Shown piece by piece: positions 6,828 to 54,849 of a stretch of DNA of 64,000 nucleotides. Made by a program: the position numbers and the translations under genes. The DNA is from Muribaculaceae bacterium. Lineage in GTDB: Bacteria > Bacteroidota > Bacteroidia > Bacteroidales > Muribaculaceae. The notes under the pieces are model-generated. The model was not told where the DNA came from. It saw only the letters and a list, made by a program, of their open reading frames with translations, and ran no database searches. The stretch spans positions 595,774 through 659,773 of the forward strand of contig JAMPDX010000001.1 in assembly GCA_023665425.1 (NCBI GenBank), in the 5' to 3' direction. Every line of letters begins with the position of its first letter. Position 1 is the stretch's first letter.

Positions 6828-7021
6828 TAAGTAGATGAGAAAAATTAATGAACATAAAATTTTACTTTATCTTCGAGTGCTTTTTGTCGGCTGAAGAAGG
6901 AGCTTAGCGAGCTAAGCGACTGATGAAGACGGCGAAAAGCGCCGTAGAGAAAGTGGAATTTTTGTTCAAATCAATCTTACCTACTGTTTACATTTGATGA
7001 TTAATTTTTCTCAGCTACTTA
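6828..7021. repeat. Palindromic element R1 with structured core
   Basis: This 194-bp element begins TAAGTAGATGAGAAAAATTA and ends with its inverted copy; the outer 23 bp match with one mismatch. Inside, long arms pair imperfectly, including GCTTTTTGTCG with CGGCGAAAAGC. At the centre is the 34-nt core (6893-6926): GAAGAAGGA, stem GCTTAG, loop CGAG, stem CTAAGC, then GACTGATGA. A copy at 42197-42391 is more than 90% identical in the opposite orientation. No reading frame of note lies within it. The last three bases (7019-7021) are the stop codon of the PurF-like gene. It fills most of the 302-bp gap 6717-7018. Confidence 0.9.
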
Positions 7022-9346: not shown

Positions 9347-9387
9347 ACCCCCCTCACACGTGGCAATAGCCGTGGGTGTACGGGGAT
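9347..9387. repeat. Repeated hairpin, copy A (after the MlaF-like gene)
   Basis: A long imperfect hairpin starts 11 nt after the stop of the ATPase gene. Its apical part CACACGTGGC-AATA-GCCGTGGGTGT is nearly the same as that of the hairpin at 13863-13906. It may end the transcript, but a shared loop and mismatch suggest a dispersed element. Confidence 0.7.
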
Positions 9388-9389
9388 GA

Positions 9390-9565
9390 TTAACCTATAT
9401 TATTCATACCAACTCCGTAGCGAGAAGTCTAAATATGTGTGTAAATCACAGTCGGCGCAGTAGGATGTAGTAAATCCTACATTCAAGGAGTGGCCTACGA
9501 GTACGACTGTGAGTTGCATACAATTAGACTTCGCAGTAGCAGGGAGTATGAATAATATAGGTTAA
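9390..9565. repeat. 176-bp nested palindrome with CTATATTATTCATAC ends
   Basis: The ends TTAACCTATATTATTCATAC (9390-9409) and its perfect inverse (9546-9565) enclose further nested arms: GAAGTCTAA with TTAGACTTC, CACAGTCG with CGACTGTG, and GTAGGAT with ATCCTAC. Either strand could fold into one rod. It holds no gene. A minimal version of the same ends forms the 50-bp hairpin at 26925-26974. Together with the hairpins on both sides it fills the gap 9337-9632. Confidence 0.85.
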
Positions 9566-13862: not shown

Positions 13863-13906
13863 TAACCCCGCACACACGCGGCGACAGCCGTGGGTGTGCG
13901 GGGTTA
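13863..13906. repeat. Repeated hairpin, copy B (after the subtilase gene)
   Basis: TAACCCCGCACAC pairs with GTGTGCGGGGTTA around an apical ACGCGGC-GACA-GCCGTGG part; 16 of 17 inner pairs form. The apical sequence repeats that of the hairpin at 9347-9387. It lies 82 nt after the subtilase stop and may serve as a terminator. Confidence 0.75.
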
Positions 13907-23345: not shown

Positions 23346-24314
23346 ATGTCCTATAAGGCTCAATATACATATAACCCGGTGACAGACAACTACGAACGCA
23401 TCTATCCCACTATGCGTTCGCGGCTGAGGTGGCTGATGCTTATACTCATCAGCGGTGCGCTCTTTTGGGGTGTGGTATTGGGTGTGTTGTGGATGTGTTT
23501 CGGCTTTCATAATGAGACATATATCGTTAAGGAAAACAATGAATTGAAGAACCAGTACAAGGTGCTGGAGAGCCGCGTCAACAGTGCGTTGACAGTCATG
23601 GAGCAGATACGTTCGCGCGACGACAATTTCTATAGGGTGATGATGCAGGTAGAGCCTATAAAGCTCTCGCAGCGATTTGCCGGTCAGGTGCCTGAGACTG
23701 ATTATACAAAGCTATATAAGTTATCCGACAAGGAATTGCTCTCAAAACTAAACAACAATCTTAGCTTGCTTGAACGCCAAATATATGTGCAATCAGGCTC
23801 ATTTGATGAGCTGCGTGCTCTTGCCATGAAGCAGCAAGATAAAATAGACCATATCCCGGCTGTATTGCCTATTAATATCAAAGATTACACAATGAGTTCG
23901 GGCTACGGGCATCGTGTTGACCCGGTGTATGGCGGTACTGCATTCCATGCCGGGCTCGACTTTGCTGCTCCTACCGGCACTCCGGTATATGCCACCGCTG
24001 ATGGTGTGGTTGAAGCGGCTACGCGTGCCGGAGGATATGGCAATAAGATAGACATATCTCATGGTTATAATTATCTGACACGCTATGCACATCTGTCCAA
24101 AATAGATGTAAGTCCGGGTCAACAGGTGAAGCGTGGCGACAAGATTGGCGAGGTGGGTAGCACCGGCAAGTCTACCGGGCCGCACCTTCATTATGAGGTG
24201 CGCTTCAAGAATGAACCTCAAAATCCGGTGAACTATTACTTCCTTGATGTTAGTCCGGAGGAGTATAATGCCATGGTCAATATGGCCGAAAATGCCGGCC
24301 ACATGATGGATTGA
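23346..24314 (+). CDS. M23-family peptidoglycan endopeptidase, membrane anchored
   Basis: The 322-residue protein has a cytoplasmic N-terminus of about 30 residues, one transmembrane helix (about 31-53), a coiled-coil stretch (about 60-100) and a C-terminal LytM/M23 domain. Zinc ligands are visible in HAGLD (about residue 200) and HLHYE (about residue 280), with ARYAHL-type spacing (TRYAHLSKI) between. All catalytic residues appear present, so it may be an active crosslink hydrolase and not a degenerate EnvC-type activator. It is followed after 34 nt by a MerR regulator and is probably cotranscribed with it. Confidence 0.9.
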   Translation: MSYKAQYTYNPVTDNYERIYPTMRSRLRWLMLILISGALFWGVVLGVLWMCFGFHNETYIVKENNELKNQYKVLESRVNSALTVMEQIRSRDDNFYRVMMQVEPIKLSQRFAGQVPETDYTKLYKLSDKELLSKLNNNLSLLERQIYVQSGSFDELRALAMKQQDKIDHIPAVLPINIKDYTMSSGYGHRVDPVYGGTAFHAGLDFAAPTGTPVYATADGVVEAATRAGGYGNKIDISHGYNYLTRYAHLSKIDVSPGQQVKRGDKIGEVGSTGKSTGPHLHYEVRFKNEPQNPVNYYFLDVSPEEYNAMVNMAENAGHMMD

Positions 24315-24348: not shown

Positions 24349-24750
24349 ATGGCTGAAAAACTTGATAAGGAATATTACAAGATAAAGGAGGTATCCGATA
24401 TCCTCGGTGTCCCCCAAAGTACTCTGCGCTTTTGGGAGAAGGAGTTTCCAAATATGGTTAAGCCTATGCGAAGCAGTAAGAATTTGCGCTACTTCCGCCC
24501 CAAAGATATCGAAAATCTACGCATTATACAGTTCCTAATCAAGGACAAGGGTCTGAAAATAGATGCCGCCAGAGAGTATCTGCGCTCCAACTCCGAAAAT
24601 GTAAGCCATATTCCGGATGTGATATCACGCCTTGAGGAGGTGCGCGATGAGCTCAACGGATTGCTCAGAGCCCTTGGAGGACGCTGGACCAAGAGCCAGG
24701 GACTGCCGGAAGCATTGCCCACTGAGGTGGCTGATTTAGACCCCATCTAA
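24349..24750 (+). CDS. MerR-family transcriptional regulator
   Basis: This 133-residue protein starts with a winged helix-turn-helix (YYKIKEVSDILGVPQSTLRFWEKEFP, followed by NLRYFRPKDIENLRIIQFL). It has a short C-terminal helix and no obvious metal- or drug-binding domain. It is second in the unit with the M23 peptidase gene. Repeat R2 begins at 24739, so the last codons (Asp-Pro-Ile and the stop) are encoded by the end of the repeat. The original C-terminus may have been slightly different. Confidence 0.88.
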   Translation: MAEKLDKEYYKIKEVSDILGVPQSTLRFWEKEFPNMVKPMRSSKNLRYFRPKDIENLRIIQFLIKDKGLKIDAAREYLRSNSENVSHIPDVISRLEEVRDELNGLLRALGGRWTKSQGLPEALPTEVADLDPI

Positions 24751-25097
24751 TAAAATTTTTATAGTTTAGGGGTCGCAGCCTTGGAGCTATTTTTGCTCTG
24801 TAGATGAAGGAGCATAGCGAGCTATGTGACTTAGCCAAAGGACAAAAAGAGCCCAAGGATGCGAGATAAAGGGTAACTTTATTACAAAATAACCTTCCTA
24901 AGAGATGATTAACAAAAATAATTAACAAAGACCGGCGATCTTGTAAAAATGTATTATAGTTGGTAGCGGTCCGGTTTTGGCCGGTAATTTTCGCCAAGTT
25001 TCGTCAGTCGCAATGCCCGCATTGCTCTATCCTCAACTTGCAAAAATACTTCGCCCAAAAGCGCCCCTAAGCCTTAAAAATTTTATGAGATGGGGTC
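24739..25097. repeat. Composite palindromic element R2 with two inverted cores
   Basis: The 359-bp element is bounded by inverted ends of about 37 bp that start GACCCCATCT and continue with ATAAAATTTTTA and TTAGGGG. It contains two copies of the 34-nt structured core, one on each strand. The plus-strand core (24803-24836) has stem GCATAG/CTATGT and loop CGAG. The minus-strand core (25034-25001) has stem GCAATG/CATTGC and loop CGGG. The middle (about 24890-24990) is AT-rich and then has a GGCCGGT/ACCGGCC-type palindrome. It supplies the merR stop codon and fills the 415-bp gap before pyrK. No coding frame is apparent. Confidence 0.85.
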
Positions 25098-26907: not shown

Positions 26908-26924
26908 CCGCCTATTACACTAAC

Positions 26925-26974
26925 CTATATTATTCATACTAACTCATACTGTTAAGTTGGTATGAATAATATAG
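26925..26974. repeat. 50-bp hairpin, minimal copy of the CTATATTATTCATAC family
   Basis: CTATATTATTCATACTAACT (26925-26944) pairs with AGTTGGTATGAATAATATAG (26955-26974) with a single mismatch/wobble, 18 nt after the pyrD stop. The arms match the ends of the 176-bp palindrome at 9390-9565. It may double as the pyrD terminator. Confidence 0.8.
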
Positions 26975-35772: not shown

Positions 35773-35849
35773 AGTGATGATTAAAAAATAAATTGGTAAA
35801 TTTTGTATGATGATTAAGATTTCCACCTTGGTATTTTTTAATCATCACT
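35773..35849. repeat. 77-bp perfect-armed palindrome between gcvT and gcvH
   Basis: AGTGATGATTAAAAAATA (35773-35790) is matched by its exact inverse (35832-35849) around a 41-nt AT-rich loop. The end TAAGTGATGATTAAAAA is similar to the ends of repeats R1/R4/R5 (TAAGTAGATGAGAAAAA), so it may be a short relative without the core. Inside the operon it could separate gcvT mRNA from the rest. Confidence 0.75.
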
Positions 35850-40697: not shown

Positions 40698-40893
40698 TAA
40701 GTGGCCGCTCAATTTAAATTGAACTTTATTCTGAGCGAATTTTTGAGCAGATTTTGAAAGTTGAAGAAGGAGTTATGCGGGCATAACGATTGATGAAACT
40801 TGGCAAAAGATGCCAAAAAGGCGCAGGGATAAAAACCTCTAAATACAATGAGCATAGCCACATAAAGTTTAATTTAAATTGAGCAGGCACTTA
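40698..40893. repeat. Palindromic element R3 with structured core
   Basis: This 196-bp element has 32-bp inverted ends (TAAGTGGCCGCTCAATTTAA... at 40698-40729 and the inverse at 40862-40893) with a few mismatches. They share only TAAGT with the ends of R1. The core (40763-40796) has GAAGAAGGA, stem GTTATG/CATAAC, loop CGGG and GATTGATGA, flanked by AAGTT/AACTT. It holds no gene. With the gcv terminator and a promoter box it accounts for the 467-bp gap 40559-41025. Confidence 0.88.
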
Positions 40894-42196: not shown

Positions 42197-42391
42197 TAAG
42201 TAGATAAGAAAAATTAATCATCAAATGTATAACAGTAGGTAAGATTGATTTGAACAAAAATTCCACATTCTCTTCCGCGCTTTTCGCCGTCTTCATCAGT
42301 AGCTTAGCTCGCTAAGCTCCTTCTTCAGCCGACAAAAATCACTCGAAGATGAAGTAAAATTTTATTTTCATTAATTTTTCTCATCTACTTA
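42197..42391. repeat. Palindromic element R4 with structured core
   Basis: This 195-bp element is more than 90% identical to R1 (6828-7021) in the opposite orientation, with ends TAAGTAGATAAGAAAAATTA and its inverse. The core lies on the minus strand (42326-42293): GAAGAAGGA, stem GCTTAG/CTAAGC, loop CGAG, then TACTGATGA. It lies between the YggS gene and the transporter gene, and with R5 flanks the latter as a direct repeat. Confidence 0.9.
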
Positions 42392-43951: not shown

Positions 43952-44051
43952 TAAGTAGCTGAGAAAAATTAATCAGCAAATGTATAACAGTAGATAAGAA
44001 TGATTTGAACAAAAATTTCACTTTATGTTCATTAATTTTCTCATCTACTTA
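43952..44051. repeat. Element R5, 100-bp derivative without the core
   Basis: Both ends (TAAGTAGCTGAGAAAAATTA and the inverse) and about 70 bp of the left arm match R4 in the same orientation. About 95 bp including the structured core are missing. It lies 16 bp before the transketolase start codon, so it forms most of that gene's upstream region. Confidence 0.85.
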
Positions 44052-53857: not shown

Positions 53858-53858
53858 G

Positions 53859-53890
53859 CCCCTTTCTCTCAAGAAGTTTATGAGATGGGG
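53859..53890. terminator. Bidirectional hairpin between convergent genes
   Basis: CCCCTTTCTC and GAGATGGGG form an imperfect stem between the stops of the ECF sigma gene and the glycosyltransferase gene. The right arm carries the sequence CCATCTCATAAA (minus strand), which is shared with the ends of R2. Confidence 0.45.
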
Positions 53891-53892
53891 TA

Positions 53893-54849
53893 TTATTTGC
53901 CGGGCAACATGTGGCTGACTATGTGCGCACCATAAAACATGATTCGGTAGTGAAGAGGCACATGTTTGAAGGACATAATGTGGCTGTTTACCTCGGGAAA
54001 GGTGTCGCGCCATTGTCTCAACCGACCAAGAGGATGACGCAGCAATGCCGAAATATTTCGCAGGTATTTCACCTTGGCTATAAACTTTAGATAGAGCATA
54101 AATTGCTCATTCTCCTTATAATAACCATGCTGACACATCCACTCCTCAAGTGAACGGGCCACTTCGATATGCTGATGCAGTATTTTATCTGAAGCTGACT
54201 TGGTTATTGAGCCGTAGCTTTCTTGCACATAGTGATAATATCCTTTGTTGAGTATCGTGGTGGTGGCTCCTATAGCTAATAGACGGGCTACCGTACCCAA
54301 ATCTTCCCAACAATCATGTCCCGGAGTAAGACCACTTATTTGCTGCAACAGAGATGTACGTATCAGCTTGTTGTTGAGGGAGAAATGAAAAGCATTGATA
54401 GTAACTTGCGAAAGATGTAGCTGCTCATTAGGCTTAAAAAGCCACAGAGTGCTTCGGTCTGAATAGTCGTAAGTCATCCCGGCAGCCACAATGTCAACCT
54501 CACCCATACGTGCAGCCGCAACATACTCGCTAATAGTCTGTGGGTCAATATAATCGTCAGCATCTACGGCCGTAATGTACTCTCCCGTAGCCGATTGTAT
54601 CGCAACGATGCGAGCTGCAGAGACCCCTTGGTTCCCCGACTGACGCATTAACCTTATGAGCAACGAGTCATCATTATTTTTGGCAATATACCTTTCGACT
54701 ATCTCATGGCTCCCGTCAAGGCTGCAATCATCAACAAGCAATAATTCAAGGGGCCTATATGTCTGCGCAACGATAGAGTCGAGACACCGTGTGAGGGTTT
54801 CCCGACTATTATAAAAGGGTATCATCACGCTTACTAATGGTCTGTACAT
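53893..54849 (-). CDS. Family 2 glycosyltransferase
   Basis: This 318-residue GT-A fold enzyme starts RPLVSVMIPFYNSRETLTRCLDSIVAQTYRPLELLLVDDCS, with the metal-binding DXD motif in TAVDADDYID (about residue 98). The C-terminal part is helical and hydrophobic at its end but has no clear transmembrane span. It transfers a sugar to an envelope glycan or lipid; donor and acceptor cannot be told. It stands alone and is divergent from nadE. Confidence 0.85.
   Translation of the reverse strand: MYRPLVSVMIPFYNSRETLTRCLDSIVAQTYRPLELLLVDDCSLDGSHEIVERYIAKNNDDSLLIRLMRQSGNQGVSAARIVAIQSATGEYITAVDADDYIDPQTISEYVAAARMGEVDIVAAGMTYDYSDRSTLWLFKPNEQLHLSQVTINAFHFSLNNKLIRTSLLQQISGLTPGHDCWEDLGTVARLLAIGATTTILNKGYYHYVQESYGSITKSASDKILHQHIEVARSLEEWMCQHGYYKENEQFMLYLKFIAKVKYLRNISALLRHPLGRLRQWRDTFPEVNSHIMSFKHVPLHYRIMFYGAHIVSHMLPGK

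Follow-up and report, generated by a model that had tools for sequence, protein, structure and literature searches.

The conserved core of the MITE R3 is a subterminal hairpin that belongs to element ends in a single clade of the IS5 family, where it keeps a constant spacing from the terminus; what is conserved is its structure, not its sequence. The anatomy of these ends was well supported; as to function, we infer from sequence comparison, with a probability of about 0.5, that the hairpin has been selected as a fold of its purine strand and has a role at element ends in transposition. R3 is one of several related elements in the window, that is, the whole stretch of 64,000 nucleotides that was analyzed (G000:C11:595774-659773), which belongs to an assembly of 2.17 Mb in 36 contigs (Table 1).

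Table 1. Core-bearing elements and their derivatives in the window
Feature	Position	Strand	Remarks
R3, single-core MITE, ~196 bp	40698-40893	-	ends TA-AGTGGCCGCTCAATTTAAATT; core orientation minus
R3 core hairpin	40756-40800	-	TTATG/CATAA inner stem, CCCG loop; purine strand reads on +
R3 left terminal inverted repeat, TA included	40698-40729	+	
R3 right terminal inverted repeat, TA included	40862-40893	-	
R1, single-core MITE, 194 bp	6828-7021	-	ends TAAGTAGATGAGAAAAATTAAT; core 6886-6930 (-)
R2, double-core MITE, 359 bp	24739-25097	.	ends GACCCCATCT; TTA target duplication
R2 cores	24796-24840 and 24997-25041	- and +	beta type and alpha type, respectively
R4, single-core MITE of the R1 family, 195 bp	42197-42391	+	core 42289-42333 (+)
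R5, coreless internal-deletion derivative, R1 family	43952-44051 (about)	+	
Fourth family, coreless copy	35773-35849	.	ends AGTGATGATTAAAAAATA
R2-type element, solitary end	53858-53895	+	

R3 had the characteristics of a MITE: it was short and non-coding, with a longest stop-free run of 54 residues, it was bounded by terminal inverted repeats whose 32-bp arms were 91% complementary, and it had many dispersed copies. The R3 family comprised 22 near-full-length genome copies and the R1/R4 family comprised 12 full-length copies (88 to 100% identity in both), so that both were true dispersed repeats; the original prediction that R1 and R4 have ends unlike those of R3 was confirmed. It had also held that the core was kept throughout R1 to R5. 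The shared core was real, its pattern occurring 19 times in the genome compared with 0 times for the reversed control, but R5 was coreless and R2 carried two opposed cores. Core-bearing copies of the fourth family were found elsewhere in the genome, at C4:16996, C36:22154, and C36:43181, and core-bearing elements in the genome had at least seven end-types. A position of the core within coding sequence was ruled out by the lack of any ORF longer than 54 residues in R3 and by the cores of the complete elements described below, which lay outside the gene; 72 of 76 core-bearing loci were outside ORFs of at least 100 residues.

A covariance model of the core (model R1, built from an alignment of 12 cores) produced 105 hits in the genome, of which about 100 had E<1e-3; a drop followed after about the 100th. 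It had matches in 36 of 49 same-genus genomes and none in 32 other families of the order, each represented by one genome. A wide scan of 84,980 species genomes, in which the loop letters alone were fixed (CAGTCG N5 CYCG N5 CTCCTTCNTC), found at least 80 loci, among them loci in Muribaculaceae, Prevotella, Alloprevotella, Prevotellamassilia, Barnesiella, Alistipes, termite-gut Bacteroides, and Verrucomicrobiales/Akkermansiaceae; the spread of the core is therefore patchy and wider than the genus sample, which understated it, would indicate. The Verrucomicrobiales/Akkermansiaceae cores (L225, L279, L282, L221, and L224) suggest transfer between phyla or great age, and two of the elements, L225 and L279, had the ends GGAGCCTGTTGAAAAACCCCG / GAGACTGTTGAAAAACCCCG with the usual core spacing.

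The stems paired far beyond expectation from shuffled sequences, with 98.9% of 534 stem cells paired compared with 65.6% in shuffles and a covariation score of 0.841 compared with 0.237. In the wide scan, the free stem letters paired completely in 76 of 82 matches at the first 80 loci listed; five matches with two to four stem mismatches came mostly from unrelated bacteria and were read as chance. One of the sets behind the layout given next had been chosen for a fully paired inner stem, and the fair tests of that stem are these two (76 of 82 and 98.9%) and the count that also gave the wobble cells described below. Counted outward from the loop, five stem pairs were 99 to 100% paired with many letter combinations, and the sixth was G-C, A-T, or A-C. 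These were followed by two invariant mismatches (C-T and T-C) and two pairs, and further out by two near-invariant mismatches and one covarying pair; the two outermost mismatches were present in about 70% of the elements and gave way to Watson-Crick pairs in most others, with an outer stem beyond them.

Every mismatched step, of which a hairpin has two or three, was a tandem G-A on the purine strand, the loop of which was mostly CGRG. In the sixth and tenth pairs, which lie beside the mismatches, 21 of the non-Watson-Crick cells were G-U when read on the purine strand, compared with none for the opposite strand. Furthermore, predicted folding favored the purine strand over the other strand both as RNA (-30.0 versus -22.6 kcal/mol) and as DNA (-17.3 versus -14.9 kcal/mol). 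The mismatch chemistry, the wobble asymmetry, and the folding energies thus make the purine strand the likely folding strand. One IS lineage ran contrary to this general preference: in the downstream core of the IS5 elements L386, L389, and L397, CYCG was replaced by a GAAA loop (CAGCC GAAA GGCTG) on the pyrimidine strand, a loop that would be well suited to an RNA of that strand, and the choice of folding strand is therefore likely, not proven. In addition, three R3-family copies, L084 to L086 (C11:52111-52378, C36:15988-16255, and C11:166167-166365), had the same ~67-bp insertion in the core hairpin, and the interrupted form has therefore spread too.

The core-bearing IS elements were traced from the transposase beside the only core of genome G012. 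Two had a core at both ends and an open transposase frame, namely, an element of 1259 bp in G125:C43 (TTA/GACCCC...GGGGTC/TTA) and one of 1281 bp in G127:C97 with a TGA duplication; several further relatives were shorter, broken, or truncated. The transposases matched NCBIfam NF033580, with scores of 134.9 and 146.2 bits, respectively, for the two complete elements (cut-off, 110), and Pfam PF01609/PF13340, which assigns them to the IS5 family. In a tree of 15 transposases (one of them long), a single branch with support of 99/98 separated the core-bearing from the coreless elements. The cores lay outside the transposase gene in inverted relative orientation, the upstream hairpin being of the beta type and lying within the stretch that separates the IS end from the start of the transposase gene, and the downstream hairpin being of the alpha type in most complete elements. 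The transposase family, the terminal inverted repeats beginning with GA, and the 3-bp TNA duplication are those of the IS5 family; the core-bearing elements differ in having conserved tandem-G-A hairpins at a fixed subterminal distance from both ends. To our knowledge, such a hairpin is no known defining feature of the family.

R2 shared with these complete elements the GACCCC ends, the 3-bp TTA target duplication, the beta/alpha order, and the spacing, and these matches show it to be a MITE that arose from the core-bearing IS5 clade by internal deletion. In the case of R2, then, the core is the usual subterminal repeat of an autonomous element, an explanation that the original prediction had recognized as contrary to its own. 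R1, R3, and R4 were not so simply explained. They had one alpha-like core at the same spacing, and their outermost ~30 bp and target duplication were of another kind; the module has therefore moved between end-types. Three coreless IS5-family elements of 888 to 901 bp, in G018 and G040 of the same genus, had ends resembling those of some single-core MITEs (GAGTGTGTTTACTTTTAAC, GTGAATGTTTAAAAATAAAAG, and GAGCTTGTTTAAAAA), and their sole match to the core model fell beyond the IS end. Given unlike end-types behind which the core occurs and coreless IS5 elements with matching ends, ends and core combine differently.

The original prediction had called for a transposase gene with the same ends. 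The coreless IS5 elements answered this for other single-core MITE ends, but none was found for the exact ends of R3, whose type of inverted ends carries TAAGTGKCTGCTCAATTTAAATT: a scan of 111 genus genomes with TAAGTRGCTGTTCAAATTAA yielded, among the matches listed, MITE-sized pairs only of R3/R1-type ends, and 20 unpaired R3-type ends included none belonging to a transposase element. An ISAon1-like element beside an R3-like end was rejected as a full-length element of this type because it had its own ends. Since no complete element with the ends of R3 was found, we infer that R1 and R3 arose by recombination between ends and hairpin, and the route of this exchange likewise. A TAAGTAGCTGTTCAAATTAA end in G010:C32 (L350) was directly adjoined by an element that carried a transposase gene and had the ends GGGTCAGC...GCTGACCC; we take this element to be ISAon1-like.

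End-types also differed in target duplication. In this genome and its relatives, 48 of 53 GAG/GAC-ended elements were flanked by identical TAA or TTA, and 32 of 40 TAAGT-ended elements (R1/R3 type) read TAA/G...C/TTA. The latter fits a 2-bp TA duplication, as had been proposed for R1, R3, and R4, although no empty site was encountered and the TA may instead belong to the element. At L073, an F7-type element (ends GAGTCCATTTC) had inserted into an R3-type element, and this nested insertion displayed the TAA duplication directly (CACATAA/GAGTCC...GGACTC/TAAAGTTTAA).

The exchange of ends was not unrestricted. Pairwise distances of ends and cores were correlated (Mantel r, 0.46; highest permutation, 0.23), so that the independence of ends and core was rejected and their exchange must be occasional, not free. 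The proposal that the two evolve separately therefore stood insofar as they combine differently and failed insofar as their distances correlate. The ends of MITEs are normally the conserved part, through transposase binding. Among 50 distinct single-core elements, mean conservation was 1.26 bits per column in the core and 0.89 in the outer 18 nt, and the claim that the center is the best-kept part thus holds on average.

The spacing was strict. At IS ends, the 45-nt core was 56 to 57 nt from the terminus in 15 of the 16 ends measured and 59 nt in one; in the MITEs, a distance of 67 to 71 nt between core end and terminus was shared by 88 of 109 single-core elements and was independent of end sequence and total length. 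The original prediction had offered the choice between a common cargo and a core with a function of its own: the conservation of structure across ends and duplications agrees with it, but a hairpin fixed beneath the ends of an IS5 clade is not simply free cargo. Another reading is that the core has no present function and is a leftover from the interior of an old IS end, maintained through recent MITE amplification, with palindrome-arm repair preserving its pairing. Although complete IS5-family elements contain it as an ordinary internal component and coreless copies exist, the mismatched steps, which arm-to-arm repair would erase, are the most invariant; the stems vary freely in many lineages, Verrucomicrobiota included; and the length of the spacer is kept while its sequence diverges. 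We therefore regard a plain remnant as unlikely.

A role of the hairpin at element ends in transposition would agree with this strict position, although descent from a common ancestor may account for part of the constant spacing. Under this model, the purine strand of the module at each end would fold into the hairpin once the element is in single-stranded form, and the fixed place of the hairpin behind the terminus could make it part of end recognition or of a coupling to replication; the recognizing factor might be the transposase or a host factor. The hairpin would help movement and would not be indispensable. A second coreless R5-type copy, at C11:346160-346259, had the same internal junction as R5 and different flanks, and the deleted form has therefore moved or been copied at least once; given such coreless copies at two sites, movement does not strictly require the core, which helps at most. 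If the hairpin acts in transposition, it would add a new functional component to the large IS5 family.

Control at the RNA level, a close second to the role in transposition but tentative in itself, would have the hairpin, in transcripts entering the element, limit transposase expression or stabilize or insulate the RNA; in MITEs, it would be inherited passively or used to lessen harm to neighboring genes. Its rank follows from the reading direction of the purine strand, which in double-core elements and complete ISs is always inward from the nearest end. It would also account for the placement of the beta hairpin before the transposase start, and the G-U wobble points the same way, as does the more favorable RNA folding of the purine strand. 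However, the exact 56- to 57-nt spacing is not obviously required by an RNA, the hairpin is kept in gene-less MITEs, and single-core MITEs were oriented at random with respect to the co-directional genes on their flanks (22 versus 21), which also speaks against a cis-acting signal for host genes or a role in host mRNAs. Rfam had no match to the cores at gathering score; the matches at E<=1 on four loci were to microRNA or viral models far under their gathering scores. If the hairpin acts as RNA, it would be an unlisted structured RNA with up to ~100 copies per genome.

A further, tentative reading is that the core is a self-standing folded DNA or RNA module with tandem G-A steps that passes between transposons of different ends and transposases and owes its conservation to a host factor or process that recognizes it at a set distance behind ends of every kind. 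A REP-like palindrome, moved inside other elements by a Y1 (RAYT/IS200-like) transposase, is very improbable. The core resembles REP elements in being a short, imperfect hairpin with many intergenic copies, often in inverted pairs, but it has neither the GTAG nor the CGTC tag by which those elements are defined (PMC3733652), and wherever the surrounding element could be delimited, the core lay inside an inverted-repeat element. Its carriers are DDE-type elements with target duplications. Y1 genes did not track it: cores occurred without Y1 in G004, G011, and G029, and Y1 occurred without cores in G008, G032, and G039. Membership in the REP/RAYT system was rejected on these grounds.

Prokaryotic MITEs (PMC10969869), including BrickBuilt of Porphyromonas gingivalis (PMC4596501), are non-coding, intergenic elements of <500 bp with inverted ends, stem-loop formation, and many copies. 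The present elements have all of these traits; unlike those MITEs, they have one folded core common to families with different ends and duplications, in several Bacteroidales families. MITEs and IS5 elements are already known. Neither Rfam nor the literature searched, whose coverage of subscription journals was thin, contained a conserved hairpin with tandem G-A steps at fixed subterminal positions that is common to several end-types, although this absence from the literature is weak evidence. The hairpin is a conserved structured element behind MITE ends, at least as well kept as they are and strictly spaced, in transposons of Bacteroidales and Verrucomicrobiota, and the core model serves as a search tool that links MITE families with seemingly unrelated ends. 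Another mobile intergenic repeat with a conserved fold is bcr1 of the Bacillus cereus group, which differs in sequence, host, and structure.

Other features of the window included an S4-Bacteroidia ribosomal protein leader (RF03139) at 23394-23426, which lay where the ORF at 23346-24314 begins and barely exceeded its gathering score. A second inverted-repeat element, at 9390-9565, had arms (TTAACCTATATTATTCATAC) that were 100% complementary and an interior with a different dyad, CACAGTCG...CGACTGTG; a short copy was present at 26921-26974. The palindrome TAACCCCGCACACACGCGGC / GCCGTGGGTGTGCGGGGTTA at 13863-13906, with a similar sequence near 9370 and another beside the R3-type copy in L086, is perhaps a dispersed palindromic repeat or a terminator.
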